Positions 22,498 through 57,917 of a DNA stretch of 64,000 bases are shown piece after piece. Origin of the DNA: Pyrinomonadaceae bacterium (GTDB taxonomy: Bacteria; Acidobacteriota; Blastocatellia; Pyrinomonadales; Pyrinomonadaceae); NCBI GenBank assembly GCA_021463165.1, contig JAJTWY010000012.1, forward strand, positions 1 to 64,000. The letters run 5' to 3'. A program made the position numbers and the translations under genes. Under the pieces are notes generated by a model. It had not been told where the DNA came from and did no database searches. It saw only the letters and a list, made by a program, of their open reading frames with translations. Every line of letters begins with the position of its first letter. The first letter of the stretch is position 1.

Positions 22498-23517
22498 ATG
22501 CCCGCCGAGTGGGAACCGCACGACGCGGTTTGGCTCGGGTGGCCGCACAATGCCGCGGACTGGCCGGGCAAGATCGCGACCATCCATTTTGTCTACGCCG
22601 AGATCGTTCGTCGAATCATCGACAGCGAAAAGGCACGCATACTGGTCAACGACGAAGCGCACGAAGCGAAAGCCCGGTCAGTATTGAGCAAAGCGGGCTC
22701 ATTATCGGATATGGTCGAGTTTTACCGCGTCCCGTCGAACCGCTGCTGGATGCGTGATACAGGCCCGATCTTTGTCAAGAACGAGTCCGAGATCGCTGTG
22801 GCCGGATTCAAATTCAACGCTTGGGCGAAATACGACGATCACGAACTCGATTCGCAGATCGCCAAAAAGCTGGCCAGGAAACTTAGGAAAAAGTTTTTCC
22901 CTATCAAACATAACGGCAATCCGTTCGTGCTCGAAGGCGGTGCGATCGACGTCAATGGCAAAGGTACGCTGCTGACGACAGAGGAATGCCTGCTCGATCA
23001 AAGAACGCAGGTCAGGAATCCGGGTGTTTCGAGAGAAGAGACTGAAAAAGTCTTGGCAGAGAGTCTGGGGGCGACAAATGTTCTGTGGCTAAATAAGGGC
23101 ATTGTCGGCGACGACACCCACGGCCATATCGACGACATTTGCCGCTTTGTCGATGCCAAAACCGTCGTCCTCTGCCGCGAATCGAACCCGAAAGATGCTA
23201 ACTACCCCATCCTCGAAGAAAACCGCGAACGGCTCGAAGGTTTCCGCCTCGAGAACGGCAGAAAGATCCACGTCGAATTTCTCCCGATGCCTGAGCCGTT
23301 GGTGTATCGCGGCCAACGCCTTCCCGCAAGCTACGCAAACTTCCTAATAACCAATTCGTCGGTCCTTGTTCCGACATTCAACGACCCGAACGACCGTATC
23401 GCGCTAAACAAACTCGCCGAGCTCTTCCCGAAACGAAAGGTCATCGGAATACATGCTGTTGACCTTGTATGGGGCCTCGGGACCTTGCATTGTTTGTCGC
23501 AGCAGCAGCCAAGTTGA
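22498..23517 (+). CDS. aguA: Agmatine deiminase
   Basis: This 339-residue enzyme converts agmatine to N-carbamoylputrescine. The N-terminus (PAEWEPHDAVWLGWPHN), the substrate-binding segments (NRCWMRDTGP, GDDTHGHIDD) and the catalytic Cys 332 in GTLHCLSQQ are all present. The usual GGGN(I/L)HC context reads WGLGTLHC here. With aguB it forms a putrescine pathway. The last 75 nt recur, diverged but in frame, 662 nt downstream beyond a toxin-antitoxin pair, so the 3' end of this gene has been involved in a recombination event. Confidence 0.93.
   Translation: MPAEWEPHDAVWLGWPHNAADWPGKIATIHFVYAEIVRRIIDSEKARILVNDEAHEAKARSVLSKAGSLSDMVEFYRVPSNRCWMRDTGPIFVKNESEIAVAGFKFNAWAKYDDHELDSQIAKKLARKLRKKFFPIKHNGNPFVLEGGAIDVNGKGTLLTTEECLLDQRTQVRNPGVSREETEKVLAESLGATNVLWLNKGIVGDDTHGHIDDICRFVDAKTVVLCRESNPKDANYPILEENRERLEGFRLENGRKIHVEFLPMPEPLVYRGQRLPASYANFLITNSSVLVPTFNDPNDRIALNKLAELFPKRKVIGIHAVDLVWGLGTLHCLSQQQPS
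23443..23517 (+). repeat. Left copy of the duplicated aguA 3' end
   Basis: This is the first member of a direct repeat with 24105-24179. Positions 23471-23511 match 24133-24173 exactly (41 nt). The rest matches mostly at synonymous codons and encodes HAVDLVWGLGTLHC. Confidence 0.85.
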
Positions 23518-23593
23518 ATTTGCTCTTTTCTAGATCGGAAAAGGATCCAAATTTTTTGAATAGCTCTATACAAACTGATATATAATCGACGTC

Positions 23594-23818
23594 ATGGCAG
23601 ACATATCGACAGTTGAAGAACTAGCTCTCGGCCTTTCGACCTCGGAACGTGCAACTCTTGCCTCGAAGCTCCTTCGCTCGCTTCCCGAATTTATGCGAGA
23701 TGATGATGACGGATATGCCGAAGCTATGCGACGCCGGGATGAGTTTCTTGCCAACCCTGATGTTGGGATCACTCCTGAAGAACTTCGCCGACGTATCGCT
23801 GAAAGATTCGACATATGA
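23594..23818 (+). CDS. Addiction-module antitoxin-like protein
   Basis: This 74-residue acidic, helical protein begins ISTVEELALGLSTSERATLA and has a C-terminal EELRRRIAERFDI. It resembles the short addiction-module component family (TIGR02574-like) paired with ParE/RelE toxins. Its stop overlaps the toxin start by 4 nt (ATGA at 23815), which supports coupled translation. A TATAA sequence just upstream, near 23579, may be its -10. The pair lies between two copies of the aguA 3' end. Confidence 0.8.
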   Translation: MADISTVEELALGLSTSERATLASKLLRSLPEFMRDDDDGYAEAMRRRDEFLANPDVGITPEELRRRIAERFDI

Positions 23819-24105
23819 AGATTGTCGTTCATCGTCTTGTTCATGTTGATGTTGCTGAAGCAATGGAGTTCTATGAGCGGGAAGGTGGCAGCGGGCTCGC
23901 AGCGGACTTCTTCTACGAATATGAGCGAGTTCTCGACTCGATTCGTGACCGTCCACACTCTTTTGTGATCTCAAGAGGCGTCTCGCGGCGGGCGAACTTC
24001 CAGCGGTTTCCCTTTCACGCAGTCTTCACTATTCTGACCGACTTCGCCTTGGTCCTTGTTATCCGTCATGATTCAAGACATCAAGATTTTGGCCTTGATA
24101 GATAA
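23815..24105 (+). CDS. ParE/RelE-family toxin
   Basis: This 96-residue protein has the RelE/ParE fold pattern: VDVAEAMEFYEREGGSGLAA, YEYERVLDSIRDRP and a C-terminal VLVIRHDSRHQDF, where the family has IRHxxRxPxYW. ParE toxins poison gyrase and RelE toxins cleave mRNA at the ribosome; this sequence is nearer ParE, but the target is not certain. Its stop codon (24103-24105) abuts the second copy of the aguA 3' end with no spacer. Confidence 0.8.
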   Translation: MKIVVHRLVHVDVAEAMEFYEREGGSGLAADFFYEYERVLDSIRDRPHSFVISRGVSRRANFQRFPFHAVFTILTDFALVLVIRHDSRHQDFGLDR

Positions 24106-24179
24106 TCGGCAACCACGCCGTCGATCTTGTCCGGGGCCTCGGGACCTTGCATTGTTTGTCGCAGCAGCAGCCAGAGTAA
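24105..24179 (+). pseudogene. Second, diverged copy of the aguA 3' end
   Basis: In frame this reads IGNHAVDLVRGLGTLHCLSQ then QQPE and stop, against IGIHAVDLVWGLGTLHCLSQ, QQPS and stop at the end of aguA. The third-position differences (for example cat/cac, gct/gcc, gtt/gtc) show it is a homologous sequence that has diverged, not a recent tandem slip. It lacks a start and the rest of the gene. Its stop lies 1 nt from the stop of the convergent XRE gene. Confidence 0.8.
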
Positions 24180-24180
24180 T

Positions 24181-24450
24181 TTACTCCGCCCTTCGGATCC
24201 ATTCTGCCTCGTATTCTGGAAAGACGATTATTGCCGGATGAACGTCGAAGGCCATCGCTAATTGTTCACCTCGCCGTTTGCCGATGGAGACCTTGTTATT
24301 CTCGAGCAGGCTCAGATTCGTAATGCTGATACCCGAACGGTTGCACAGCTCCCGCTGCGTCCACCCTTTTAGTTCCCTTAGGATCTGGCTCACGCGGCCG
24401 GTGGATAGCGGAATATGTGGTTCGGCTGGTTTAAAATCTTCTTTATTCAT
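24181..24450 (-). CDS. XRE-family helix-turn-helix regulator
   Basis: The product is 89 residues. A HTH is visible at ~24-70: QILRELKGWTQRELCNRSGI then SITNLSLLENNKVSIGKRRG. A short C-terminal part follows, with a flexible N-terminus. It looks like a small DNA-binding repressor. It is not in the same orientation as the adjacent toxin-antitoxin pair and is separated from it by the aguA remnant, so it need not belong to that module. It lies 46 nt downstream of no other minus-strand gene except the helicase that follows it. Confidence 0.8.
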   Translation of the reverse strand: MNKEDFKPAEPHIPLSTGRVSQILRELKGWTQRELCNRSGISITNLSLLENNKVSIGKRRGEQLAMAFDVHPAIIVFPEYEAEWIRRAE

Positions 24451-24496
24451 TCTAGGTTTCTTCTGATATTTGTGCGGAGTGAGCGTAAGTCAACCT

Positions 24497-26638
24497 CTAA
24501 TTTAGATATTCCGGCGATTTGTCCTCGATCTCAACCGGTGCATCAAACACCGCTGCTTCTTCCTCAAGATTCCAGATCTCATACAAATCTGGCGGGCATT
24601 CGGTGATAAATCTCGACGGTTTTTGAAGCACGGTTTGGCGGTTGTAATCGGTCATTAGGAGCGGATAGGTAAGGTAAAGCTCGTCCTTGGCACGCGTGAT
24701 GGCGACGTACCAGAGGCGGCGTTCCTCTTCCTCGCTGTCGATCTCGCGCAAGGATCGGGGCGAAGGGAATTTGCCTTCGGCGGCCCAGATGAGAAAGACG
24801 GCTTTCCACTCGAGGCCCTTGGCCTGATGAACGCTCGTGAGCGTCAGCAATTCGTCTTCGTCACCCCCTGAGATGACCTCTTCGCCGACGAGCGGCTGCG
24901 GCTCCTTGAAGCGCTCCGTCGATAGCAAAGCGAGTTCGGAGAGAAATTCGTCCGTCGTTTTGTAGCGCGTCGCGTAGGCCCCGAGACCCTTGAGGTCTTC
25001 GATGCGGGCATCAGCATTCTCATAGTTTTCCTGCAGATATTGCTCGTAGCCGTGCGTCAATATCAGCTCGATCTGCTTCGATGGATTGTCGCGGTTTTCC
25101 TGACTCGAAAGGAGTTCGATGAGCACGACGAAGGCTTTCCAGGATTGTGTCGTGCGAATTCGACCCACAACCTCAGACGCGAGCACCTGCAAACTCTCAT
25201 CCTTGCGGAGAAGAGGTGCCGGATGGTCTGAGCCAGCAACCTGGTCCTCCGGCTTCATTTCCCCGGAGGTTGCACGAGTCGCGACTATCGCCTCATACAC
25301 CCGATTCGCAGTAGCGTTCCCTACGCCCGGAACCATTTTCAATATCCGTTTCCATGCGAGCTCGTCGCGTGGGTTGACGATGATCCTCAAATAGGAGATC
25401 ACGTCTTTGATATGGGCCTGTTCAAAAAACCGCACGCCGGATTGAATGCGGTACGGGATATTTCGCCTTGTCAGCTCGAGCTGCAGCTCGATCGAGTGAT
25501 AATGCGAGCGGTACATCACCGCCATGTCTTCGAGGCCCACGCCTTCGTCACGAAGTTCCAGAATTCGCGAGGCAACAAATGCCGATTGCTGTTCGACATC
25601 GCTGCACGGCACCATCGCGGGCTTGAAGTCGCGCGAACGCCTCACCGCAGTCAGCATCTTCGGAAACTGCTTGCGGTTGTTGGCGATCGAAGTATTCGCG
25701 AGCCCCAGGATCTCCGGCGTCGAGCGGTAGTTGGTCTCGAGCTTGAAAAGCTGAGCTTCAGGATAGCGTTTCGGGAATTCGTAGATGTTCGTAAACTCGG
25801 CGCCACGCCATGCAAAGATCGACTGGGCATCATCGCCGACGACCATCACATTGCGATGTTTGACGGCGAGCAGGTCGATGATCTCAGCCTGCAGGCGGTT
25901 TGTGTCCTGATATTCGTCGACCAGGATGTGCTGGAATTGGTCGGCGTAGAACTCGGCGATCTCCTTTTTCTCGACCAGCAGGCGCTTTACGTTGAGCAGG
26001 AGATCATCGTAATCCATCACGTTGCGCTCCTGCTTACGCGACCGATACATCAGATCGATACGCTCGATCTGCCTCGTAAGCGGCTCGAAATAAGGATATT
26101 TCCCAACAATGACGTTCTCGATGGGCAGATCGGTGTTGCTCGCGTACGAGATGATGCCCTGGATGACATCGGCCTTCGGGAAGCGTTTCGCCTTGGTGTC
26201 GATCGCAGCTTCGTCGATGCAGGCGTTGATGAGGTCGCAGGCATCCTCGCTGTCGAGGATCGAATAGTTCGGATCAAACCCGATGCTGACGGCATGCCGC
26301 CTGAGCATTTGGTTCGATATCCGGTGAAATGTTCCGCCCCACACGCGATGGACGTTCTGCGAGCCGGTCAGCGATTCGACCCGCCGCAGCATCTCCTTCG
26401 CCGCCCGGTTAGTAAATGTAGCGAGCAATATCCGCTGCGGTGAAACGCCGTGCTCGATCAGATACGCAACGCGATACGTGATCGCCCGCGTTTTTCCGGT
26501 TCCCGCCCCGGCGACAACCAGTGAGGCTTTTGGCTGCGCCGTCACGACGGCAAACTGCTCGTCATTCAGCTCGGCACGGTATCGCGTTAGCCGCTCGGGC
26601 AATGCATTCCGATCACGTTTTAGAACGTATTTTTTCAT
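24497..26638 (-). CDS. uvrD: UvrD/PcrA-type DNA helicase
   Basis: This 713-residue superfamily 1A helicase has motif I GAGTGKT (44-50), Ia ATFTNRAAKEM, II VDEYQDTN, III GDDAQSIFAWRGA, IV NYRST, V LTSVHQAKGLEWKAVFL and VI LWYVAITRAKDELYL. It unwinds 3'-5' in repair and replication. The C-terminus lacks the usual longer PcrA tail and the family is diverse, so the name uvrD is by class. A short hairpin-rich gap precedes the next gene upstream. Confidence 0.92.
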   Translation of the reverse strand: MKKYVLKRDRNALPERLTRYRAELNDEQFAVVTAQPKASLVVAGAGTGKTRAITYRVAYLIEHGVSPQRILLATFTNRAAKEMLRRVESLTGSQNVHRVWGGTFHRISNQMLRRHAVSIGFDPNYSILDSEDACDLINACIDEAAIDTKAKRFPKADVIQGIISYASNTDLPIENVIVGKYPYFEPLTRQIERIDLMYRSRKQERNVMDYDDLLLNVKRLLVEKKEIAEFYADQFQHILVDEYQDTNRLQAEIIDLLAVKHRNVMVVGDDAQSIFAWRGAEFTNIYEFPKRYPEAQLFKLETNYRSTPEILGLANTSIANNRKQFPKMLTAVRRSRDFKPAMVPCSDVEQQSAFVASRILELRDEGVGLEDMAVMYRSHYHSIELQLELTRRNIPYRIQSGVRFFEQAHIKDVISYLRIIVNPRDELAWKRILKMVPGVGNATANRVYEAIVATRATSGEMKPEDQVAGSDHPAPLLRKDESLQVLASEVVGRIRTTQSWKAFVVLIELLSSQENRDNPSKQIELILTHGYEQYLQENYENADARIEDLKGLGAYATRYKTTDEFLSELALLSTERFKEPQPLVGEEVISGGDEDELLTLTSVHQAKGLEWKAVFLIWAAEGKFPSPRSLREIDSEEEERRLWYVAITRAKDELYLTYPLLMTDYNRQTVLQKPSRFITECPPDLYEIWNLEEEAAVFDAPVEIEDKSPEYLN

Positions 26639-26682
26639 CCGTGCAACGTGATATTATCACGGATGTGGCTCAAGGCAGAACC

Positions 26683-26707
26683 GCCTGCGAAAGCAGGCTT
26701 CTTGTTT
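26683..26707 (+). other. Stable hairpin with GAAA loop
   Basis: A 6-bp GC-rich stem (26683-26688 and 26693-26698) closes a GAAA tetraloop and is followed by TTCTTGTTT on the plus strand. Both flanking genes are on the minus strand, so a terminator role would serve antisense transcripts. Significance is uncertain. Confidence 0.3.
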
Positions 26708-26728
26708 GCCCATTCACTCTCCTATTAC

Positions 26729-27496
26729 TCAACTCTGATAAACGCCGTTTGCCGCTAGCTTCAATCCTTCGATCATCCGCCGATACGGGCCCGGGCCGTA
26801 GCTGATACGGGCAACGCCGAGTGCGGCCATTTCCTGATTCGACGGCGTATCGGCCATGACCATGATGTTCACCGGCAGCGACGAACGTGCGCAGATCGAT
26901 CGAATTAGCTCCGGATCCTTTAATCCGGGTGCGAACAAGCCGCTCGCACCTGCGTCCGCATAGGCCACACCTCGCTTGACGGCCTCTTCGAAATGCTCGC
27001 GGTGGGCCGGCGCGGCATTTTTTAGAAATACGTCCGTTCTGGCATTTATGAAAAGCGGAACTCCCTTCGCATTTGCGGCCGCGCGAATAGCTGCGATGCG
27101 CTCCGATTGTTCCTCGACGGAATACAGGCCTTCGCCGACGACGATCTGGTCCTCAAAATTGATCCCTATCGCTCCCGTGTCGATAACCTTTTCGATGTTG
27201 GTTTTGAGGGTATCGATGTCGGCCGAATAACCGCCCTCGAAATCGAGAGTGACGGGCAAGTCGACAGCGGAACAGATCCGTGCGATGTTCTCGAGGGCCA
27301 AGTTCATCGGCAAAGCCTCGCCATCTGAAAGCCCCTGCGCGGCCGCAACTGACCAACTGCCGGTGGCGATCGCCCTTGCGCCGGAATCGGCGACAGCCTC
27401 GGCACTGCCGGCATCCCAGATATTAAATAAGATGACCGGATCGCCGGAAATGTGTAGAGCGGCGAATTGCTCCGCCTTTTCTTGTTGTGATGACAT
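26729..27496 (-). CDS. Isocitrate lyase/PEP mutase family enzyme
   Basis: This 255-residue TIM-barrel protein has the family's Mg-binding and substrate loops: FNIWDAGSA, LDFEGGYS, INFEDQ and NARTDVF. It lacks the KKCGH motif of true isocitrate lyase and is the short form seen in 2-methylisocitrate lyase-like, carboxyvinyl-carboxyphosphonate mutase-like and oxaloacetate-hydrolase-like enzymes. The exact reaction cannot be assigned. The 48-residue Cys protein lies 61 nt upstream on the same strand. Confidence 0.82.
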   Translation of the reverse strand: MSSQQEKAEQFAALHISGDPVILFNIWDAGSAEAVADSGARAIATGSWSVAAAQGLSDGEALPMNLALENIARICSAVDLPVTLDFEGGYSADIDTLKTNIEKVIDTGAIGINFEDQIVVGEGLYSVEEQSERIAAIRAAANAKGVPLFINARTDVFLKNAAPAHREHFEEAVKRGVAYADAGASGLFAPGLKDPELIRSICARSSLPVNIMVMADTPSNQEMAALGVARISYGPGPYRRMIEGLKLAANGVYQS

Positions 27497-27557
27497 CTAT
27501 CTTCTCCGAAGATCGAGAATGCCCGGCCGCGGACCGGGCGGTCTCGAGATACTAACA

Positions 27558-27704
27558 TTACGCCGTCGCCGCTTTGGCATGGTCGGCGATCGCCTGCGTC
27601 GCGCATTCGTCACAGCAAACTGTGATCTCCTTTCCCGCGACCGTTACCTTTACGCCACCGTCTTTGATCTCCCAATCGCAGACCGGGCATTTCGATTCAG
27701 CCAT
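27558..27704 (-). CDS. 48-residue Cys-rich metal-binding protein
   Basis: This is a short gene with a perfect GGAGG (minus strand, at 27713-27717) about 8 nt before the ATG. The product starts MAESKCPVCDWEIKDG and continues through EITVCCDECATQAI to a stop. CPVC and CCDEC make a small zinc-ribbon or treble-clef-like site similar to TRASH/YHS-type metal sensors or chaperones. It is likely a metal carrier or a small regulator. The strong ribosome binding site and regular Cys spacing support a real gene. Confidence 0.75.
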   Translation of the reverse strand: MAESKCPVCDWEIKDGGVKVTVAGKEITVCCDECATQAIADHAKAATA

Positions 27705-27777
27705 TTTTTTATCCTCCATTTCTTGATCTATGAAAACCTTCGGTTTCCATGTTTCGAGAGTAATGGTGGCGAAAAAT

Positions 27778-28725
27778 TCAGGCTATCAGATTCTTGCTCA
27801 TTTCGCGGATGGCCTTTACCGTTTGTCTCCGTCTTACCGCAGACGGGGTCTCGCCAAATTCCCGCCGGAAAACATCCGTAAAATGGCTGTGGCTCGAAAA
27901 TCCCAAATCGAGCGCGATCTCGGTGATCTCGATCTTCGGATCGGCGATCCGCTCGAGCGCCGCACGCAGCCGAAGGATGGTGAGGTATCGATGGATCGGC
28001 ATTCCGGTCTGCTGGTGAAAGATGCGAGCAAAGTTGAATGGCGATGCATTCACGGCCGCGGCGACATCATCGAGGGTCACGGCCTCGGACATTCGCGAAG
28101 CGAGATAGGTCTTCGCTGCTTCCGTGCGTTCGCCATGATCGGCAATTGTCGAGGCTCGTCGGCGCGGTCTTGATCCATAACGCTCGAAGGCATCCTCGAT
28201 GACATCCGCAACGAGCTGCAAACCGGTCGCATCGGCCCAAAGTGGTTCTAGCGGTTCGGCGGATTCGAGACGGCGGACAAATTCGCGGTGCCGCCAAAAA
28301 ATAGAGGCCTCGCACGGGCCGGTAACGAACGGGAACGGCTGGTCCGGCCGCTCATCTATCGCCGGATCGAGTTCGCGGATGATGTCATTCAGGATCGATT
28401 GGGCGACATTGAAAGTCGTCCCTCGGTCACCGCAATCGGCCGGATGGCTGACCCGATAGACCGAGTCCTTGCTGAAAAACACCGCTTGATTCACATCCGC
28501 CGTGATGTGTCTTTTGCCGAAATGCTTCGAGAAAGCTCCATGCCGCATCAGGACAATGCCATTCACATCGGAGCTCTCCTCGGCCGACTGGCCGCATGCT
28601 TCGTGCCGGCATATATAATCGCGGACGCTGATCATCGGGCTGTCGTACAGCGTTCGAAACGTCAGCAGTTCCGGGTCGGGCTTTTCCACAGCGATATCGT
28701 AAACACGTCGCCGCAAGATAATCAA
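27778..28725 (-). CDS. AraC-family transcriptional regulator
   Basis: The product is 315 residues. The C-terminal ~100 hold two AraC helix-turn-helix motifs: VTLDDVAAAVNASPFNFARI and ITEIALDLGFSSHSHFTDVF, then FRREFGETPSAVR. The N-terminal ~190 residues are the ligand-binding part with no recognisable family beyond a cupin-like start. It is divergent from the cytochrome gene (78 nt apart), which it could regulate along with itself. The inducer is unknown. Confidence 0.88.
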   Translation of the reverse strand: MIILRRRVYDIAVEKPDPELLTFRTLYDSPMISVRDYICRHEACGQSAEESSDVNGIVLMRHGAFSKHFGKRHITADVNQAVFFSKDSVYRVSHPADCGDRGTTFNVAQSILNDIIRELDPAIDERPDQPFPFVTGPCEASIFWRHREFVRRLESAEPLEPLWADATGLQLVADVIEDAFERYGSRPRRRASTIADHGERTEAAKTYLASRMSEAVTLDDVAAAVNASPFNFARIFHQQTGMPIHRYLTILRLRAALERIADPKIEITEIALDLGFSSHSHFTDVFRREFGETPSAVRRRQTVKAIREMSKNLIA

Positions 28726-28803
28726 CCTTGGGCCCGACGGCGTTTGAAATCTATAAAGCTTGGAATTAAACTCTAGAACACCACGGGAGATGCAGCCGGT
28801 ATT

Positions 28804-29157
28804 ATGATCCAGTCGATGAAGCTCGCTTTAGTTGTTGCCGGCCTTGCAGGCGGTATTTTGATGATTGCCAAAGGCCCTTCCACCTCCGCGGCGTCCGTCG
28901 GGCCGGCTGAGAACGCAGCCTCGCGGACTCTCTATCGCACCCACTGCGCGGAATGTCACGGGAATGACGGCCGCAGCAACACCAAACGCGGACGCGAGAC
29001 CGAGGCGAACGACCTGACCGATCCCGGTGTGAAGGCAAACGCCCACGACAAGAACGTTCGGATCATCACTAACGGAAAAGGCGAAATGCCCAGCTTCAAG
29101 CGTAAGCTCTCGGCCGCACAGATCGCCTCGATCGCCCGGTATATCAAAAATCTCTAG
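28804..29157 (+). CDS. Small c-type cytochrome
   Basis: The product is 117 residues. A signal peptide (~1-30) is followed by one heme c site CAECH (48-52). M95 in KGEMPSF is the likely axial ligand, in the position typical of class I, c6-like cytochromes. It ends SIARYIKNL. It is probably periplasmic or membrane-tethered by an uncleaved helix and passes electrons between respiratory complexes. No oxidase or dehydrogenase gene is near. Confidence 0.85.
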   Translation: MIQSMKLALVVAGLAGGILMIAKGPSTSAASVGPAENAASRTLYRTHCAECHGNDGRSNTKRGRETEANDLTDPGVKANAHDKNVRIITNGKGEMPSFKRKLSAAQIASIARYIKNL

Positions 29158-29192
29158 CCCGATCGCCGAAAGCTCAGGCCAGCCGGTTCTGC

Positions 29193-30590
29193 CTAGTTCA
29201 ACTCTATCGACCCCAGCACATTATTGAATGTACGGGCATAAGCGTTTGCTTCGTTCGCCGGAACAACGGTGACAGCGTAAAACAGCGAGCCGTCGCGCAT
29301 TCGCGTAGTGTAAATGTTTACGACTTCGGTACTTCCGGTAACAGGCGACTGTCCTGCCAGTTGGATGGTCATACCTTGTCGTCCCGCCAGGCTCCTGCTC
29401 GTGAGCCGGGTTTGCTGACGCAGGTATGAATTGCCCTGGAGCGTTTCGTTTACGTAATTTTCCGTATCCGTCCGCAGCGAGCCGTTCGAGCCAGGGAAGA
29501 TACCGATCATCATGCCGTGCGTGATGCCCTGGTCGCCGTACGCGCCTTCCGGTGCGAACTGCGCGCCGTTCTGGCCGCCGAATTCGCGCCAATTATCAGG
29601 TATCCAAACCCGAACAAAGCTTGATCCGCTGTATTCCTTTGGCTGCGACGACGGGTACGGCACGTTTCGCGAGTAGCGTCCGCCGGCGGTCGGATTTTCC
29701 GTTGCCCCACCGCCCTGCTTCTGGATCTGAGCCATTGTTCGGGCCGGTGGCATGGACCGGAACTTGGATTGAACGCGTTCAAAATCACGAGTGAACTTGA
29801 TCGGGTTGGGCGAAATGCGGAGGTATTGAGCCTCGCGGTTTATCTTCTGGTAACGATTTCCCGGATCTGGATGGCTGCTCAGCCATTCCGGGGCGCCGCG
29901 GCTTCCCTCGCCCGCGATCGTCTGGAAAACATTCGCCAGGTCATGCGGATCATATCCGGCATCAGCCATTATCTGCGCCCCGAGTGTGTCGGACTGGGTT
30001 TCATATTCACGGCTGTATTTCGTCTGCCAGGCCATCGCCGCCGCGGCCCCAAGCTGCGCGCCAGTATTGCCGCCGAGTATCGCCCCGCCGAGGATAAGGC
30101 CGATAGTACCAAGCGTATTCTTAGCACTGCTCTGCTTGGTCGCCTGGGCGGTCGCATGCCGAAGAGCAACGTGGCTTATCTCATGAGCCATTACGCCCGC
30201 GAGTTCACCTTCGTTCTTAGCCGCCTGCAGCATCCCGCGGTTGACGTACATCGGCCCGCCGGGCAGAGCAAACGCGTTGAGATCGCTCGCGTTCACCCAC
30301 TTGAACTGATAGTTGAAGGCCGGTTGATTGAACCGCCGAGGGATCGAGCGAACGAGCCTTTCACCGACCCTTCGAAGATATGCATCCGCTTCCTGGTCAT
30401 AGATGATCGGGAACTGCTTCTCAACTTCCGCCGCCGCCTGGTTGCCGAGCCTGACGTCGTCCTGGACCTTATACTTGTTTTTCGGCGCCACGACCTGCGT
30501 TTGCTGCGCGAGGGCCGCAACCGGCAGCATCACGAGTGCAGCCGCTAGCGCAAAGACGGTCATCCGTTGCGAAATCGATATTCTCTCCAT
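29193..30590 (-). CDS. Exported M48-family metallopeptidase
   Basis: The 465-residue product starts with a signal peptide (~1-30, ending ALAQQ). The zinc motif HEISH is at 136-140, and the third ligand region ETQSDTLGAQ follows. The domain order resembles the periplasmic BepA/YfgC-type protease (chaperone-protease for outer-membrane proteins), but the C-terminal part is not TPR. Residues ~300-465 form a separate beta-rich domain with no family that I recognise. It likely does envelope quality control. Confidence 0.88.
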   Translation of the reverse strand: MERISISQRMTVFALAAALVMLPVAALAQQTQVVAPKNKYKVQDDVRLGNQAAAEVEKQFPIIYDQEADAYLRRVGERLVRSIPRRFNQPAFNYQFKWVNASDLNAFALPGGPMYVNRGMLQAAKNEGELAGVMAHEISHVALRHATAQATKQSSAKNTLGTIGLILGGAILGGNTGAQLGAAAAMAWQTKYSREYETQSDTLGAQIMADAGYDPHDLANVFQTIAGEGSRGAPEWLSSHPDPGNRYQKINREAQYLRISPNPIKFTRDFERVQSKFRSMPPARTMAQIQKQGGGATENPTAGGRYSRNVPYPSSQPKEYSGSSFVRVWIPDNWREFGGQNGAQFAPEGAYGDQGITHGMMIGIFPGSNGSLRTDTENYVNETLQGNSYLRQQTRLTSRSLAGRQGMTIQLAGQSPVTGSTEVVNIYTTRMRDGSLFYAVTVVPANEANAYARTFNNVLGSIELN

Positions 30591-30726
30591 AGTTCCTCCA
30601 ACTAGCCTGTTGTCAAGATTCTAATGCCCGGAGCTTGAGACCACAAACTCCGGGCCGGGGCTTTGCTGTGATGAATCGCCTCCGTCCCCGAGTTCGCCGT
30701 AAACGCCTCGACGCTATTTCGTCGGA

Positions 30727-30746
30727 ATGTTAACAAGATGTTACAG
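30727..30746 (+). promoter_or_regulatory. Candidate Pho box upstream of phoU
   Basis: ATGTTAACA (30727-30735) and ATGTTACAG (30738-30746) are near-identical and start 11 nt apart, the spacing used by PhoB/PhoP response regulators. A TATAAT at 30785-30790 lies about 40 nt downstream. The genes that follow are phosphate genes, which makes a Pho-regulon operator plausible. Confidence 0.4.
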
Positions 30747-31567: not shown

Positions 31568-31572
31568 ATATG

Positions 31573-49370: not shown

Positions 49371-50885
49371 CTAATCAAGCCGTTTGATCCGGCCGTCCAC
49401 AACCGGCGAGATCGTACCGTTAGGGGAGTTTCGGATCGCCGCCTCGAAAATGTCGGTATCCTTCGGCGCCGTAGCAGCTTCGGTCAGCAGCTTTCCATTC
49501 TTGAACATCGTGTAGCCGTCGCCGCCGCGGGAAACGAGAAAATCGGAAGTCGCGATCGTGTACACCGACTCTTCGACGACCGGGCGGCCGCCAACGCTGA
49601 CGGCAGTTATACGGCTGCCGGCGGGCTTCGACGTATCGTATTCGAACCTGAGGCCCGAAACCTGCGGAAAACGGCCCGGTTCATTGTCTTCGCCCCGGCC
49701 GCTGCGGGCGACCGCGTGTTCGAGAATTTGCTTCAAGAGCTTGCCGGTAACCTCGACCTTAACGATCGGATTATTGAACGGGAGTATCGAGAGCACCGCT
49801 CGTTTGGTCAGAAGGCCCGGGCTGTATGTCAGGTCGGCACGGATCGAACCGCCATTGACGAACCCGATGTCCGCCTTTACCGCTTCCCGATACGAATCGG
49901 CGATGAAATTGCCGATGTTCGTCTCTTTCTGCCGGTTCGAATGCGAAAGCGCGTCGAGTTCGACGGATGTCGAGCCGACCGAAACCGCCAGTTGATCCAG
50001 AAGGCCGCGGTATTTATCAAATACGGGTTGGAATTCCGGCGCGTCGGCGATCTTGTCGTTGACCGGAATGATCTCCCAGTCTATACTCTCGAGCCGCTTT
50101 GTGCGTCCGTTGAAATTCAGGTTGAATCTACCGATCTCACGGGCATCCGAGGTCATCTTGAAGATCGGCGTTCCGTTCGAAGAGGACTGAAGCAGCGTAT
50201 GTTCGTGACCGCCGAGCATCAGGTCGAGGTCGGCACAAGCCGCAAGTTTCTTGTCCTGGGCCATAAAAAGGTGCGTCAGCCCGATAACGGCGTTTACTTT
50301 CTTCCGGACACGCATCTCACGGACCAGTCGTTTTGCGACCGCGCAATAGTCGGTGACCGTCAGCGAATCCTCCATCGAGGATGTCTCCTTGGTCTCCGGA
50401 AGGAGCAAGCCAATGATGCCGACCTTGATCCCATTGAACTCCCGGATAACGTAGGGCGGAAGATCGGCAAAGATCTTTCTGCTTTTTGTATCAATGACAT
50501 TGGCCCCGAGCCAGGTGAATTTCGACTCTTTGATCCGGCTGAGAAGGTCGGCCGTGCGGATATCGAATTCGTGATTTCCGAACACGGCGTAGTCCAGCCC
50601 GACCGCATTCCATGCATCGATCATCTGAGCGCCGCGATAGGTACGTGTCTCGACGGATGGCGAAAGCGTATCGCCGCCGAGTGTGAAAATCGTGTTCGGA
50701 TTTGCAGCCTTTGTTTCGTTCCTTATCGTCAGGAGTCGGGCAAGTCCGCCCGCCTTGCCGCCATCGACCGGAGTAAACTGATACACGTCATTGACGTGAA
50801 GAAACGTCACACGGACCGTTTGGCCGGCTGCCGGAAAGGCAAATGCCAGCAGGAATGTCGTCAGTACAGCAGTTCGGAAGAGCAT
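49371..50885 (-). CDS. Exported 5'-nucleotidase/UshA-like metallophosphatase
   Basis: The 504-residue product has a signal peptide (~1-22), a metallophosphatase domain (FLHVNDVYQF, GGDTLSP, GNHEFD, GLTHL, GGHEH) and a C-terminal 5'-nucleotidase domain (GNFIADSYRE, FVNGGSIRADL, ILPFNNPIVK). These two-domain enzymes hydrolyse nucleotides and nucleotide sugars in the periplasm to recover nucleosides and phosphate. It lies between a tryptophan dioxygenase and a DoxX gene on the same strand. A 785-codon antisense frame here is not a gene. Confidence 0.92.
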   Translation of the reverse strand: MLFRTAVLTTFLLAFAFPAAGQTVRVTFLHVNDVYQFTPVDGGKAGGLARLLTIRNETKAANPNTIFTLGGDTLSPSVETRTYRGAQMIDAWNAVGLDYAVFGNHEFDIRTADLLSRIKESKFTWLGANVIDTKSRKIFADLPPYVIREFNGIKVGIIGLLLPETKETSSMEDSLTVTDYCAVAKRLVREMRVRKKVNAVIGLTHLFMAQDKKLAACADLDLMLGGHEHTLLQSSSNGTPIFKMTSDAREIGRFNLNFNGRTKRLESIDWEIIPVNDKIADAPEFQPVFDKYRGLLDQLAVSVGSTSVELDALSHSNRQKETNIGNFIADSYREAVKADIGFVNGGSIRADLTYSPGLLTKRAVLSILPFNNPIVKVEVTGKLLKQILEHAVARSGRGEDNEPGRFPQVSGLRFEYDTSKPAGSRITAVSVGGRPVVEESVYTIATSDFLVSRGGDGYTMFKNGKLLTEAATAPKDTDIFEAAIRNSPNGTISPVVDGRIKRLD

Positions 50886-50888
50886 ATC

Positions 50889-51683
50889 TTACTGAGGAGG
50901 TTCGGCCTTAAGATGGGTTCGCGCTTCCCAGAGCTCGGGAAAGAACCTCTTGGTCAACGTGGACATCAGATACCCGACGCCCTCGCTGCCGCCGGTGCCG
51001 CGTTTCATCCCGAGCATTCGTTCGACCATCAGGACGTGATGATACCGCCACAACGATATATTCTCGTCGTGCTCTATGAGCAGGTCCTGCATGACGAAAA
51101 GGTTCGGATGCTTTTCGGGGTGGGTCAGTATCTCGACCACGGAGGAAACCTTCTCCTCGCGCGAACCGACGGAAAACCCCTCGCGAGAAAGCATCGCCCA
51201 GAATGCATCGCCAAGGCTCGGTTTTTCAAATCGTTCTTTAAGGCGGGAATATGCGAAGGCGTCGAACTTGAAAAATTCCAGGATCTTTTCGTCCTTTTGG
51301 CCCGATACAAACTCAAGTTCGCGAAATTGCATCGACTGGAAACCACTCGCCGGGTTGAGTTTATCGCGAAATTCGAGAAAACCGATCTGCGCCATCGATT
51401 CGAGAATGTGGATCTGCGAGACCATTATCTTTTCGATCGAAACTACCGCCCGGAGGCTGTGATTCACGCGAAATGGCCGCCCCTCATCCAGCCAGCCGAT
51501 CGTCGCGTCGATCTCGTGAAGGATCTGGTTGAACCAAAGCTCGTACGTCTGGTGGATGATGATGAACAGAAGTTCGTCGTGACTGACGGGGTCGGAAAGC
51601 GTTCGCTGGAGCTTGAGGAGCTCGGGAACTTTCAGATATTCGTTGTACGAAAGAGGCGGATTTTTGCCGTATTCTGAGGTCAT
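50889..51683 (-). CDS. kynA: Tryptophan 2,3-dioxygenase
   Basis: The 264-residue heme enzyme starts YGKNPPLSYNEYLKVPELLK and carries HDELLFIIIHQTYELWFNQI, the family's signature with the substrate-binding His; the proximal heme His is in the YRHHVLMVERMLG segment. It opens the indole ring of L-tryptophan to N-formylkynurenine. With the de novo nadA at 33 kb it could feed NAD by another route, but no kynurenine genes are here. The phosphatase gene starts 3 nt downstream. Confidence 0.95.
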   Translation of the reverse strand: MTSEYGKNPPLSYNEYLKVPELLKLQRTLSDPVSHDELLFIIIHQTYELWFNQILHEIDATIGWLDEGRPFRVNHSLRAVVSIEKIMVSQIHILESMAQIGFLEFRDKLNPASGFQSMQFRELEFVSGQKDEKILEFFKFDAFAYSRLKERFEKPSLGDAFWAMLSREGFSVGSREEKVSSVVEILTHPEKHPNLFVMQDLLIEHDENISLWRYHHVLMVERMLGMKRGTGGSEGVGYLMSTLTKRFFPELWEARTHLKAEPPQ

Positions 51684-51782
51684 TGAGAATCAGTTTATGC
51701 CGGTATTTATTGGCACAATGTTGCGTTATTAGGCGATTTATGTCAATTTTCGGAATTTTTTCCTTAAAAGGCAAAATAGTCC

Positions 51783-51811
51783 TTGACAGTGAATCTCGAT
51801 TTGTTTAATTT
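51783..51811 (+). promoter_or_regulatory. Promoter of the cold-shock gene
   Basis: TTGACA (51783-51788), a 17-nt spacer and TAATTT (51806-51811). The start would be near 51818, giving a leader of about 205 nt before the ATG. Long leaders that refold in the cold are typical of cspA-type mRNAs. Confidence 0.5.
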
Positions 51812-52021
51812 TCTATTCGTCTATCAACACAACACACAAAAAAATATAGCTTACGATCTTGCATTTTAAGGTCTCGTTCTATTTTGGAAATGAGAAGTGC
51901 GAAATAGATCTTTTTCCTCTCGACACCCGGCAAGGTGTTCGAGCGGTTTGTTTTCCTGTTCCGACGAAGGGCCGGGGAAAATTGTTATTAGAGGATTTGA
52001 AGTATTAGGAGGATTTACACA

Positions 52022-52234
52022 GTGATGTCAAAAACTATCGGCAAGGTCAAATGGTTCAATAACGCGAAAGGCTACGGCTTTATCGAGCAGCCGGGCGAAC
52101 AGGATATATTTGTCCATTACAGCGCTATTACCGGCGACGGCTATAAGACCCTGATCCAGGGCCAGGAGGTCGAATTTGAGGTTACGACGGGGCCAAAAGG
52201 GCCTCAGGCCGAGAATGTAATTAAGGTGGCCTAG
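52022..52234 (+). CDS. Cold-shock protein
   Basis: This 70-residue protein is a single cold-shock domain: [14 protein letters not shown] (RNP1) and DIFVHYSAI (RNP2). It binds single-stranded nucleic acid as an RNA chaperone. Two ATGs occur in a row, so either can be the start; GGAGG lies 10 nt upstream. It has a long leader with a promoter near 51783 and a terminator just downstream, so it is monocistronic. Confidence 0.95.
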
Positions 52235-52255
52235 TGCCTTAGTGAGAATGTATTT

Positions 52256-52292
52256 CGGCGGGGTGAGTCAGCGGACCCACTCCGCCGCTTTA
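52256..52292 (+). terminator. Terminator of the cold-shock gene
   Basis: Arms 52256-52265 and 52278-52287 form a GC-rich stem with one G-U pair, followed by CTTT. It begins 22 nt after the stop codon. Confidence 0.7.
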
Positions 52293-53075
52293 ATTGAGAG
52301 GAAGTTTTTCGGCAACTAATTCAAAAAGAGCGTTCTTAAAGAATACTTTTTTTAGCAATGAATCGACGCCATTGAACGCGGCTCGTCGCTGGATGTCTCT
52401 GGTGGTTGCGACATTCGATGCCTGGCTGTGAATGTTGATCGGCTGTGAGGCAAAAACGCCTCTGATCCGGTCCTCGCTCAAGTGGATCGTGTGGTCGGCG
52501 AAAGCCGACAGTTCAAGCTTGATGCCCAATGCGTTCCACGTTCCATGCAACCGCGAAGCGAGGTCGTAAAATGGATGATGGACGTTTACGGTGAAGTACA
52601 GCAGTCCGCCCGGTTTCAGGACACGAATGATCTCGTCAACCACGTCAAACGGGCGCGATGCGTGATCGATCACGTTGTCGCTCATGACGATGTCAAACGA
52701 GTTGTCGGCAAAAGGAAGTGCCTCGCCTATCGCGGCTACGGTCGGAGCCGTCCGCTGGATCTTTGGAAATAACGTCTTGTATTCGACGGCAAGGGGATCG
52801 AGTCCGATACCGTAACCTGCGGCGATACCGAAAACGAGTCCGTGAGCACCGCTGCCAACTTCGAGAATGCGGTCGGCTGCACTTATTGGCCTTACGCTCT
52901 CGATCTTTTGCCGGACCTGCTGCGAACGAACAAAATTGGCCCGGACCAATTCGTCCTCCGCATCGGACAGTGAGCGGGACTTGTCCTGCTGATACTCAAG
53001 CTGGCGCTCGAGAGCACGTCGTCCGCGTTCGTCCGTTTTCCGTTCGGTCCAACTGGCGTTTTGGCCCAAAGACAT
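52290..53075 (-). CDS. SAM-dependent methyltransferase
   Basis: The 261-residue class I methyltransferase has motif I ILEVGSGAHGLVF, GIGLDPLAVE, ALPFADNSFDIVMSDNVIDH and VLKPGGLLYF. A ~75-residue N-terminal helical part precedes it and a C-terminal lobe with VTRDIQRRA-like helices follows. The substrate is unknown; UbiE/COQ5-like small-molecule or lipid methylation is possible. It starts 5 nt downstream of the YqeY gene. Confidence 0.85.
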   Translation of the reverse strand: MSLGQNASWTERKTDERGRRALERQLEYQQDKSRSLSDAEDELVRANFVRSQQVRQKIESVRPISAADRILEVGSGAHGLVFGIAAGYGIGLDPLAVEYKTLFPKIQRTAPTVAAIGEALPFADNSFDIVMSDNVIDHASRPFDVVDEIIRVLKPGGLLYFTVNVHHPFYDLASRLHGTWNALGIKLELSAFADHTIHLSEDRIRGVFASQPINIHSQASNVATTRDIQRRAAFNGVDSLLKKVFFKNALFELVAEKLPLN

Positions 53076-53080
53076 CGGTT

Positions 53081-53527
53081 TCAGGAGAGTTTTGACTTCA
53101 CGGCGTCGCTCACAGCTTTGCCATCAGCAGTCTTCCCGGAAAGTTTGGCAAGGGCAGCCTTCATCACGGCTCCCATGTCTCTCATCGAGGTCGCACCGGT
53201 CTCTGCAACAGCGGCACCGACGGCTGCCGCGATCTCTTCAGATGATGCCGGCTGCGGAAGATATACCTCGATCACGGCGATCTCGGCTTTCTCCTTTTCG
53301 GCTAGTTCCGTGCGTCCGGCGGCATCGTATTGCTCGATCGAATCCCTACGCTGCTTTACGAGCGACTGAAGGGCCTTCGTGATCTCTTCATCCGTGAGTT
53401 CGCCGCCCTTCTCGATCTTCCGATTCATCAGATTGGCCTTGACCATCCTGAGGGTCGAGAGCCGCTCGGCATCCTTCGCTTTCATCGCTTCGGTAAGGTC
53501 AGCGACGATCGTTCCAAGTAAACTCAT
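53081..53527 (-). CDS. GatB/YqeY-domain protein
   Basis: The 148-residue product has the YqeY signature: MKAKDAERLSTLRMVKANLM, LTDEEITKALQSLVKQRRDS and YLPQPASSEEI. The domain is shared with the tail of the GatB amidotransferase subunit and is thought to bind tRNA. Its role as a free protein is unclear. It forms an operon with the methyltransferase gene downstream. Confidence 0.92.
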   Translation of the reverse strand: MSLLGTIVADLTEAMKAKDAERLSTLRMVKANLMNRKIEKGGELTDEEITKALQSLVKQRRDSIEQYDAAGRTELAEKEKAEIAVIEVYLPQPASSEEIAAAVGAAVAETGATSMRDMGAVMKAALAKLSGKTADGKAVSDAVKSKLS

Positions 53528-53583
53528 AGCAAATTGAGTTTAGATTGGAATTCGGTAAGTCTCAAGCGGCCGATCTGGGCTGA

Positions 53584-54117
53584 TCACTTCAATCGGGACC
53601 CGAGAGCCTTCAACCAATCGAAGGGCTTTCGGACGACCGCGAGGGTCTTTGCCCCAAAACTACGCTTTACTTTTGATTCGGTAGTCGGGACGCCTCGCTT
53701 CTCCTCATTTGTGAGGTTTGTATCGGGTTGGGTTCGTGGAGGAAGTTCTGCTTTGCGCAACTCATCGCGCCTTTCGTAGGATGCAAATGTATAGGGCGAT
53801 GGCTTTGGGATACTTATCGTTACGGCGCTGAGATCAGTAAAGTAGGTGCGAACCCTCGTCGGCGTTGTACCCAACCTACGCGACCTGACATTTCGCGTTC
53901 CGTGCGAAACTCGGGTTGGAGCCAGAACGGCGATCTCAACGTTCGGCTCATCGCTGTCGCGAAGGTCGAGATCGGAGATCGTCACCAGCGGAGCTTCCTG
54001 AACGAGTACTGGGCGAACGTCAGCAGTCGATTCGAAGATCGCGTTGACCTGGGTATAGGAGATAAAGCCCAGCTGAAGCAAAAAGATGGCGACGATACCC
54101 GTAATCGGTCCTTTCAT
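53584..54117 (-). CDS. Exported protein of unknown function
   Basis: The 177-residue product starts with a signal peptide or anchor (ITGIVAIFLLQLGFISYTQV). The remainder is polar, basic and rich in Arg, Thr and Pro, with no domain that I recognise. Two Arg-rich stretches (GTRNVRSRRLGTTPTRVRTY) may be processing sites or a disordered region. It is a clean single-gene unit upstream of YqeY. It is real by its signal sequence and coding appearance, but I cannot assign a function. Confidence 0.6.
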   Translation of the reverse strand: MKGPITGIVAIFLLQLGFISYTQVNAIFESTADVRPVLVQEAPLVTISDLDLRDSDEPNVEIAVLAPTRVSHGTRNVRSRRLGTTPTRVRTYFTDLSAVTISIPKPSPYTFASYERRDELRKAELPPRTQPDTNLTNEEKRGVPTTESKVKRSFGAKTLAVVRKPFDWLKALGSRLK

Positions 54118-54349
54118 AATCCTACCCCCGTATCGTGTTTATCATTGATGAACACCCTAGGTTCTTAGTATAAGGATTTAATAGAAAGGTTGTAAATCAT
54201 ACATTGAAATAAATTGTTTGACAGAGCAGCCCGTCTCCAATTCCGCCAGCACCTAGCTTACACTTTTTCTACTGCCGGATGACAACGGACGATCGCCCGC
54301 TCTCGACTCGAAAGTGCCTGCGAGTTTTCATACAATCATTGGTGCACCA

Positions 54350-56455
<2,106 letters not shown>

Positions 56456-56475
56456 TTATACCGGAGCTAATTAAG

Positions 56476-57735
56476 ATGCGGTTTATAAATCAAAGCCTAA
56501 TAACAATTTGCTTGGTGGCAATATTGTCGAATTTGACAATCGTTTTTTCTCAAACCAATACGATGGAAACGGATTTGGCATTGGTTGGGGCAAAAATCTA
56601 TCCTTCGCCAAAGGCGAGCCCGATAATTGGCGGAGTTGTGCTGATAAGAAACGGCAAAATTACTGCCGTGGGCAAAAAAGGCAAAATCAAAATTCCGTCG
56701 CGGGCTAAAGTCATTGATTGTAAGGGTTTGATACTCACTTCGGGATTTTGGAACAATCACGTCCATTTTATCGAAACAATTTGGGAGAATTCTGCCACGA
56801 TACCGGCTTCAAAACTGACTCAACAGCTACAAGTTATGTTGACCAAATACGGATTTGTTACTGTTTTTGATACAGGCTCGGTTTGGGCTGAGACAAACGC
56901 CATTCGCCGCCGAATCGAATCGGGTGAAATTCAAGGACCCAGAATTTTTACTGTCGGCGAAATTCTTAGTCAGAAAGGCGGATTGAGTCCTGAGTTATTA
57001 AAAAGTGCAGGTTTCTTGTCTGATGCCGTTATTGAAGTTAGTGGTCAGAAAGATGGGGAAGAAAAATCTCGTCAACATGTAAAAAAAGACGTGGATGCGG
57101 TTAAAATCTACGCTGCCACTTATTTTCGGGGCTTGGTGGAGATGTCTCCTGTAACGCTTGAGGCTATCGTAAAAGAATCTCGAAGGGGCGGAAAACTGGT
57201 ATTTGTTCATCCGTATAATCAAAACGGAGCTGAAGCCGCTATTAATGCCGGAATTGATGTTTTTGCTCATACGCTCTCAAACGGAAAATTTACGAATAAC
57301 CAACTCAAGCGAATGAAACGCCAGCGAATTGCTCTGATTCCAACATTGCGATTATGGAAAGTAGAAGCGGGACGAGAAGGAATGTCGGTATCAGAAACTG
57401 AAGAATTTATCAACTCAGGTGTAAAGCAACTTCGTGATTATTCTAAGATAGGCGGTCAAATACTTTTCGGAACGGATGTCGGATATATTGATTACGATCC
57501 AACCGAAGAATATATATTTATGGAGCAGGCAGAATTGAGTTTTCGACAAATATTAGAATCACTAACGACTGCTCCAGCCAAGCGGTTCGGGCTGTCCAAA
57601 ACAACGGGCAAAATCGCTCGCGGAATGGATGCAGATATAGTCTTATTAAGTAACGACCCGGCAACAGATGTTAAAGCCTTTTCATCAGTTCGCTACACAA
57701 TCCGTGCCGGAAAAATTATCTATCAGTCCGACTAG
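56476..57735 (+). CDS. Exported amidohydrolase-family protein
   Basis: The 419-residue product has a signal peptide (~1-26). A metal-dependent amidohydrolase core is visible: HVH in WNNHVHF, a His in VFVHPYNQ, DVFAHTL and GTDVGYI, then the C-terminal KIARGMDADIVLLSNDPATD. It resembles imidazolonepropionase- and prolidase-like hydrolases of the periplasm. The sequence is AT-rich (23 G+C in the 60 nt 57421-57480). It sits between thiC and a second copy of the thiC 3' end, so it looks like acquired cargo. Confidence 0.85.
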   Translation: MRFINQSLITICLVAILSNLTIVFSQTNTMETDLALVGAKIYPSPKASPIIGGVVLIRNGKITAVGKKGKIKIPSRAKVIDCKGLILTSGFWNNHVHFIETIWENSATIPASKLTQQLQVMLTKYGFVTVFDTGSVWAETNAIRRRIESGEIQGPRIFTVGEILSQKGGLSPELLKSAGFLSDAVIEVSGQKDGEEKSRQHVKKDVDAVKIYAATYFRGLVEMSPVTLEAIVKESRRGGKLVFVHPYNQNGAEAAINAGIDVFAHTLSNGKFTNNQLKRMKRQRIALIPTLRLWKVEAGREGMSVSETEEFINSGVKQLRDYSKIGGQILFGTDVGYIDYDPTEEYIFMEQAELSFRQILESLTTAPAKRFGLSKTTGKIARGMDADIVLLSNDPATDVKAFSSVRYTIRAGKIIYQSD

Positions 57736-57800
57736 CCCCTTTTGAAATATCAATCAACAAGAAACCCTAGAAGCATGAGAAAGTGCCGTTAAAAGAAGCC

Positions 57801-57917
57801 GTTTCCGAAGAAAAAGCACTTGCAGTCGGAATGGCGGAAAAAGCAAAAGAGTTTGTCGAAAAAGGAAGCGAGATTTATCAAGGCAATTTGCCCGACGGGG
57901 CGAAGGAGCATCATTAG
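57801..57917 (+). pseudogene. Second, diverged copy of the thiC 3' end
   Basis: In frame this reads [18 protein letters not shown], then [20 protein letters not shown] and stop, against [38 protein letters not shown] and stop in thiC. It has no start codon or radical-SAM part. The unit between the two stops is 1462 nt and holds the amidohydrolase gene. Upstream of the Val codon the match to thiC ends. Confidence 0.85.

Follow-up and report, generated by a model that had tools for sequence, protein, structure and literature searches.

In a 64,000-nucleotide stretch of the genome of a Pyrinomonadaceae bacterium (called here the window; G000:C4:1-64000, from the source genome G000 of 3.66 Mb and 80 contigs), two complete genes, coding for an agmatine deiminase (locus A) and for ThiC (locus B), are each followed by one or two cargo genes and then by a diverged copy of their own 3' coding end, hereafter the leftover. 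Similar leftovers recur behind other genes and, at thiC, in many genomes of the genus. We propose that these units have a two-step origin which requires no dedicated enzyme, namely a birth through one homologous and one non-homologous joint followed by spread through ordinary recombination, and we assign a probability of about 0.63 to this reading. The genes, repeats and cargos concerned are the following.

22498-23517, + strand: complete agmatine deiminase gene, with the left repeat A copy at its end (Pfam PF04371 PAD_porph, positions 2-321 of 321, E 2.6e-114)
23435-23511, + strand: left copy of repeat A, the agmatine deiminase 3' end (repeat finding)
23594-23818, + strand: cargo A1, addiction-module antitoxin-like protein of 74 aa (Pfam PF09720, 25.5 bits for a cut-off of 23.3)
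23815-24105, + strand: cargo A2, 96-aa partner of A1, presumed ParE/RelE-type toxin (homologs adjoin the antitoxin in G008, G006, G017 and G023)
24097-24173, + strand: right copy of repeat A, leftover agmatine deiminase 3' end (repeat finding and comparison with congeners)
54452-56455, + strand: complete thiC, with the left repeat B copy at its end (NF006763, 1043 bits for a cut-off of 650)
56338-56454, + strand: left copy of repeat B, the thiC 3' end (repeat finding)
56476-57735, + strand: cargo B, amidohydrolase of 419 aa (Pfam match)
57800-57916, + strand: right repeat B copy, a leftover of the thiC 3' end, with the frame intact to the stop codon (repeat finding)

The two same-strand copies of repeat A (23435-23511 versus 24097-24173) are identical at 65 of 77 nt (84%) and their final 41 nt are free of differences; it is the sole direct-repeat family reported in its region. 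Repeat B (56338-56454 versus 57800-57916, same strand, 117 nt, 86% identity) is the longest in its own. When 2000 random 77-mers of the window were searched for a match of at least 80% within 3 kb downstream, three were found (positions 23435, 56373 and 56377), all of them inside repeats A and B. The first-pass annotation of this DNA had described the succession of gene, cargo and diverged 3' copy at two loci 33 kb apart, with differing cargos and no transposase or integrase, and this description is confirmed by the present results: the cargo is a toxin-antitoxin (TA)-like pair in one case and an amidohydrolase in the other, and no transposase or integrase match was obtained for the three cargo open reading frames (ORFs). 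The product of 22498-23517 matches both NCBIfam agmatine deiminase models over the full length, with scores under the cut-offs, and A1 reaches 26.8 bits with TIGR02574, under the cut-off of 31.9. No family match was obtained for A2 in Pfam, PADLOC or NCBIfam, and we presume it to be a toxin of the ParE/RelE type; the 3' end of its ORF and the leftover share positions 24097-24105. Cargo B has a GC content of 42%, versus 54% for the window, and its best other match by score, among the matches listed for the 41 genus genomes, has 30% identity and 97.8 bits (self 920). Of the named relatives, the two closest in agmatine deiminase bear the labels Blastocatellia and Acidobacteriota, and both are metagenome bins.

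The right flanks of both loci, which are needed for the comparison with relatives, consist of:

24181-24450, - strand: helix-turn-helix (HTH) gene, recipient-type flank (HTH_3 match; 94% identical in G011)
24497-26638, - strand: uvrD-like helicase, the right border of the interval in congeners too (family match and congener comparison)
58042-59508, - strand: GFO/IDH/MocA oxidoreductase, right of the thiC leftover (family match)

The relatives hold both states from which locus A could be composed. In G011, agmatine deiminase is directly followed by the HTH gene, which starts 15 nt past the last matched codon, and then by uvrD. In G008, G006 and G017 the order is agmatine deiminase, TA pair and uvrD, with neither HTH gene nor leftover. 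Locus A, in which agmatine deiminase, TA pair, leftover, HTH gene and uvrD succeed one another, combines these two arrangements. In the seven genomes in which both border genes were fetched, the agmatine deiminase-uvrD interval holds the HTH gene, the TA pair, the TA pair with leftover and HTH gene, or other content. No obvious homology is seen at the right joint of locus A, whose exact parents are unsampled. An empty site was also found for another gene (names by eye): in G023 an AAA-ATPase-like gene is followed by a cargo, an exact leftover of 25 nt and a FAD-oxidase-like gene, whereas in G014 the AAA-ATPase-like gene is directly followed by the oxidase-like gene. Three side observations were made around these loci. 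When window 24181-24497 is compared with G011 (L003 2556-3148), about 280 nt more are found in the latter between the HTH gene and uvrD; as judged by eye they hold a toxin-like protein paired with the HTH gene, and of this pair the window keeps the HTH gene only. The uvrD-like gene behind the TA pair of G008 (L004 3096-3465) seems broken or internally deleted, its two ends matching side by side. A 35-nt direct repeat of 74% in the window (50061-50095 versus 59285-59319, 9.2 kb apart) is probably due to chance.

The frequency of such 3'-end echoes was estimated by a DNA scan of 2,092,524 bases from four genus genomes (G000, 878,524, i.e. 24% of the genome; G027, 614,000; G023, 200,000; G014, 400,000) with 1665 ORFs of at least 120 aa. 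An echo was defined as an ORF 3' end of at least 30 nt that reappears in the same orientation, no more than 8 kb downstream and outside other ORFs. Seven of the 1665 ORFs have one; the echoes are 36 to 112 nt long and the copies are 75-90% alike. Two of the seven are the agmatine deiminase and thiC genes of the original finding, and these are not the only cases in their genome, as an enoyl-CoA hydratase-like and a 1011-aa restriction/modification-like gene of G000 are added (names by eye). The remaining echo genes are lepA in G014 and, in G027, a menaquinone-pathway-like radical SAM gene and sufB (names by eye). PIN-domain proteins are the cargo behind both lepA and the radical SAM gene, and at G027:C1:357032-361206 a nuclease-like gene and a leftover of the sufB end split sufB- and sufC-like genes (names by eye). 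The echo of the enoyl-CoA hydratase-like gene lies only 50 nt away with no cargo gene between, and 257 nt without any called ORF separate the restriction/modification-like gene from its own. Four same-strand downstream 3'-end matches inside other ORFs, which probably include a 99% tandem pair of the G023 sample, were left out of the count, and the 25-nt leftover of G023 falls under the 30-nt limit. The cargos listed here form a non-random sample.

At the protein level, a scan of contigs of at least 60 kb gave seven nearby matches in six genes (lepA twice; one gene is the 99% tandem case) and no same-strand gene-end match at 30-36 kb. In G014, lepA has two consecutive leftovers (G014:C6, sample coordinates 207429-207482 and 208368-208487, to which 100000 must be added) and is a second stacked case besides thiC. 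An eighth echo gene, found by chance outside the scan in 40 kb fetched for an integron (see below), is the deoxyhypusine synthase gene of G000 (C45:88428-89405); its two echoes lie 4-5 kb downstream, at 83959-84062 (91%) and 83294-83385 (89%). Outside the genus, no echo of the agmatine deiminase end was detected at 77 usable loci (80 fetched).

Mirror controls were carried out with both scans. For 5' starts repeated upstream, seven matches in four ORFs were obtained by DNA and six matches by protein; we read them as a block of tandem repeats, neighbouring paralogs, a single recent duplicate and two weak matches, without any housekeeping gene followed by foreign cargo among them. For 3' ends repeated upstream, there was one match by DNA (the G027 thiC array) and three by protein (the same one and two weak ones). 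The 3' bias of the echoes is suggestive only, because the interpretation of the 5'-start echoes rests on our judgement.

Within the genus, thiC is a hotspot. With a threshold of E 1e-5, a sequence-only profile built from 24 thiC ends and leftovers, which match it by construction, gave 61 matches, spread over 36 of 41 genus genomes, the source genome included. From the match table we counted 25 extra copies of the thiC end, beyond one per genome, in 15 of the 41 genomes; the first thiC copy of G027 is cut by a contig end. In ten genomes, at least one of them is found on the thiC contig in the same orientation, not more than 9 kb downstream (G000, G005, G006, G010, G012, G017, G022, G023, G024 and G031), and units stack: three thiC end copies follow in a row in G010 and G031. 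Further copies sit elsewhere, either at a distance from thiC or on a different contig (G000:C56 and C35, G032:C7, G009:C25, G029:C136, G006:C271 and G018:C10). Full-length thiC and its C-terminus were used to measure the 24 leftovers, of which 19 match less than 130 nt of thiC; the other five are one in G031 (~430 nt), two in G027 (one of ~510 nt and one truncated at a contig end), one in G000:C35 (832 nt, cut by a contig end) and a two-piece leftover in G029. The cargos include Doc toxin and DinB (G010), Arr (G023), pentapeptide repeats (G031), an N6/N4 DNA methyltransferase (G005), DUF4440, flavodoxin and aldo/keto reductase (G024) and a KilA-N protein (G006; also PADLOC PDC-S22) with a 96%-identical relative in G017; G006 also carries a small HTH protein, below the cut-off. 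Insertion-sequence-like genes lie by eye between the thiC copies of G027. In addition, the copy on the 3.3-kb contig C35 of G000 (G000:C35:2421-3252) is a partial second thiC, 84% identical to that of the window, which is either genuine or due to a foreign contig in the assembly; that of G000:C56:19454-19560 contains an in-frame stop, and no thiC gene was found on its contig. In G023 (L043, oriented 5656-7468), the end of a DUF4386-like gene (by eye) is likewise repeated ~1 kb farther downstream, and its two copies enclose a thiC leftover together with two more genes, as nested events.

One thiC cassette is common to two lineages within a recently exchanged tract. Between G006 and G017, identity is ~95% in a tract that spans the final 540-600 nt of thiC and the KilA-N gene and extends to the next leftover, and only ~80% in the thiC sequence upstream of it. 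On the basis of these two genomes, the whole unit of gene end, cargo and leftover may have moved by homology on both sides. The extra small HTH cassette of G006, which brings a different thiC end and is placed before the old end, would represent a later insertion.

The differences between gene ends and leftovers follow the codon structure. In nine ungapped pairs, five of which are thiC and so not fully independent, 87 of 139 differences fall at third codon positions (p 1.7e-12 versus one third), and more codons are changed by meaning than silently in G010 (9 versus 4) and G005 (7 versus 5). Because of this codon structure, both copies appear to have been gene ends until recently. An old tandem duplication of the gene end and its neighbour, followed by deletion and decay, would equally leave a partial duplicate beside its parent, and the thiC leftover of G029, which is in two pieces with ~175 nt of thiC missing between them, has this aspect. 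Such an origin is ranked as very unlikely because the copy differences are codon-like; cargo B, moreover, has no close relative in the genus, and relatives hold the two arrangements which compose locus A.

The same data bear on insertion with long target duplication, reportedly described for restriction-modification (RM) systems by Nobusato in 2000 and Furuta in 2010. The resemblance lies in the long and variable direct repeats, which measure 77 and 117 nt at the two window loci and range from 36 to 112 nt among the scan cases, and in the single copy with no insert in relatives (agmatine deiminase of G011, AAA gene of G014). In the literature on it, one or a few selfish genes are found between variable direct repeats of ~100 bp with no transposase (PMC3874152, PMC1643837, PMC3031569). 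In the strict sense, in which the insertion itself doubles the target, this process would explain repeats of about this size and their variable length as well as relatives with a single copy, and the TA-like, Doc, PIN-domain and DNA methyltransferase cargos are in agreement with what is described for RM systems (PMC3874152, PMC1643837). The exact 25-nt leftover of G023 fits too, and does not speak against a single-target origin. We consider it unlikely nonetheless: the copies, 84-86% alike in the window and 75-90% in the DNA scan, differ mainly at third codon positions and look like two alleles, the derivation of both copies from one target being our own reading of the name of the system. Our units also differ from it in the window cargos, which are TA-like genes and an amidohydrolase with no RM system (G005 has a DNA methyltransferase), and in the stacking of copies behind one gene across the genus.

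Identical tracts are embedded in these diverged copies. In 16 same-genome pairs, the identical runs of gene and leftover have a mean of 22.3 nt, versus 14.6 nt for permuted partners (0/20,000 permutations), and the longest ones reach 65, 41 and 38 nt. The agmatine deiminase run of 41 nt compares with at most 23 nt in the other 27 pairs. For agmatine deiminase, the thiC of the window and G010, diverged sequence flanks the identical run on both sides, as would be expected for a crossover or a conversion inside it.

A crossover in such a tract would also fit the action of a site-specific recombinase, possibly provided in trans, inserting circular cassettes at gene 3' ends in such a way that the cassette supplies a new end and the old one is pushed to the right. 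Integrases insert at tRNA or protein gene ends. The echoes lie at 3' ends, are mostly short, are stacked at one gene and come with mostly 1-3 cargo genes in mostly one orientation, and eight matches to tyrosine recombinases, seven of which exceed the cut-off, were obtained in the genome. The targets are however unrelated (thiC, agmatine deiminase, lepA, sufB and deoxyhypusine synthase), the shared tracts vary in length and position with no fixed crossover point, leftovers of ~430 and ~510 nt exist too, and none of the three window cargo ORFs matches a recombinase or, as expected in a site-specific integrative element at a gene end, an integrase. We regard this explanation as improbable.

A last enzymatic possibility is that of integron-like cassettes in which the gene end acts as attC. 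Integron gene cassettes are short gene units, mostly in one orientation and stacked, and our units are alike in these respects; their cargos are cassette-like in size and orientation. The genome also has an integron integrase (G000:C45:89436-90398) with 413.7 bits for a curated cut-off of 265, reached by 0 of 14 control genomes, and, close to it, three attC-like sites (near 90917, 92144 and 92625) separated by small genes; G000:C45 is thus predicted to carry a chromosomal integron in an uncultured lineage. The deoxyhypusine synthase gene adjoins the integrase gene; its 3' end lies at G000:C45:88428-88532 and the two echoes of it within 83294-84062. The repeats are nevertheless host-gene coding sequence with no attC features: the window copies match the 40-kb integron region no better than chance, the folding of the copies does not exceed that of shuffled sequences (six sequences, z -0.24 to 0.95) and an attC-type R-box pair was present in 0 of 26 copies. 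The integron explanation is consequently hardly credible, and the new element restoring gene ends on insertion, which the first-pass annotation had offered as its more novel alternative, finds no support here in an enzyme-driven form: no recombinase in the window cargos, no fixed crossover point, and neither boxes, similarity nor fold of the attC type in the copies. An assembly artefact of metagenome bins, to which the nature of the named relatives and the partial second thiC on a 3.3-kb contig would lend themselves, is extremely improbable as well, as the same architecture occurs in separate assemblies such as those of G027 (2 contigs), G023 (7) and G014 (8), and a k-mer chimera would not create a non-homologous joint between cargo and leftover.

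The two-step origin proposed above would proceed as follows. DNA of a relative carrying the gene end and a downstream cargo would enter the cell, possibly by transformation, in line with the presence of ComEC in the genome. RecA-type recombination through the shared gene would give the resident gene a new in-frame end, and the far side of the cargo would be joined inside the recipient's old gene end without real homology, perhaps at a microhomology, so that the old end would remain as a 5'-truncated leftover. The cargo would then lie between the gene body on its left and the gene end on its right, i.e. between two homology arms, and the cassette could enter the single-copy gene of a relative by double crossover or, as a circle, by single crossover. 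New cassettes would be placed in front of older leftovers, which would result in stacks. Cargos that are useful or, like addictive ones, hard to lose would stay, whereas longer or more similar leftovers would be lost via recombination between the copies. The 3' ends might be hit through selection, since an upstream insertion would separate the gene from its promoter.

The birth step takes up the homology-facilitated illegitimate recombination which the first-pass annotation had put forward, and this claim held in part. One joint must lie in the gene and the other, which shows no obvious homology at locus A, seems to lie inside the old gene end; relatives show the two arrangements of locus A and an empty site for a third gene. 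That process combines one homologous with one non-homologous joint, as seems to be the case here too, and likewise involves ~1 kb of foreign DNA, usually with a deletion of ~1 kb (PMC3240628). A microhomology of 3-10 bp at the non-homologous joint and a dependence on RecA during transformation are further features of it. The present cases differ in that the second joint mostly falls within the final ~130 nt of the gene, that locus A shows no deletion where cargo and leftover meet, with ~280 nt missing farther right between the HTH gene and uvrD, and that there is an apparent secondary spread with homology on both sides. Beyond what had been suggested, the leftover at thiC seems to serve as a second homology arm, with which a cassette could later move by homology on both sides.

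Several observations weigh against the two-step origin. Leftovers are mostly short (19 of 24 at thiC below 130 nt, and those of all six other DNA-scan genes) although the genes measure ~0.8-3 kb; survivorship must be added because random non-homologous joints should leave many longer leftovers. At the joint of locus A no deletion is seen relative to G011, the HTH gene following the leftover as it follows the gene there. Homology-facilitated illegitimate recombination alone predicts neither that most leftovers stay below 130 nt nor this missing deletion. The HTH-uvrD gap measures 47 nt in the window versus 329 nt in G011, ~280 nt less. Only the right flank of locus A is G011-like (HTH gene, 94%): the diverged 36 nt of the leftover match G006 at 31, G011 at 30 and the window's own gene at 24 of 36 positions, and our confidence is slightly lowered because the sequence of the leftover itself is not assignable to a G011-like recipient. 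On the donor side, the TA proteins of the window are 59-73% identical to the sampled ones, their parents being unsampled, and by comparison with congeners the agmatine deiminase of the window is nowhere clearly donor-like. For the thiC of the window, neither a state before insertion nor a donor or recipient was found in the genus by tracing cargo and right neighbour. Some cross-genome pairs share identical runs of up to 44 nt, and the identical tracts could stem from later gene conversion. Finally, ComEC is present in G000 but also in 10 of 14 control genomes, which is no proof of competence, and Ku was not found in the genome, so that the joining route is conjectural.

A further known system is the minimal mobile element of Neisseria, in which different whole-gene cassettes lie between conserved genes and are swapped by homologous recombination (PMC3898611). 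The agmatine deiminase-uvrD interval similarly holds differing whole-gene cassettes. In contrast with that element, a leftover gene end is made which can act as right arm, and no conserved right neighbour is needed at thiC: the oxidoreductase at 58042-59508 has close orthologs in G011, G031 and G061, and in these three congeners they lie on contigs other than those of the thiC ends. The phenomenon works like the known kinds compared here and fits none of them, because each fails a tested feature. Among open-access titles and starts of abstracts, we found no title on gene-end leftovers stacked behind one gene and no paper combining homology-facilitated illegitimate recombination with toxin-antitoxin systems. 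It is possible, but on balance doubtful, that gene-end cassettes are widespread recombinase-free mobile units in which each insertion makes its own right homology arm. Addiction, defence and other genes would in that case pass between species by ordinary host recombination, stack behind well-conserved genes such as thiC and escape notice in annotation, the host gene being left intact.

If the proposed origin is true, host recombination alone would turn any gene behind a conserved gene into a self-propagating cassette. TA and DNA-modification genes could then pass from one species to another with no need for transposons, plasmids or integrases. Annotators should also bear in mind that, where an intact host gene is followed by a variable one, the latter may have been acquired recently. 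The leftover ends would form a record of the events that is cheap to search in any genome, and the vector-free movement of chromosomal TA and RM genes would become testable by counting them.

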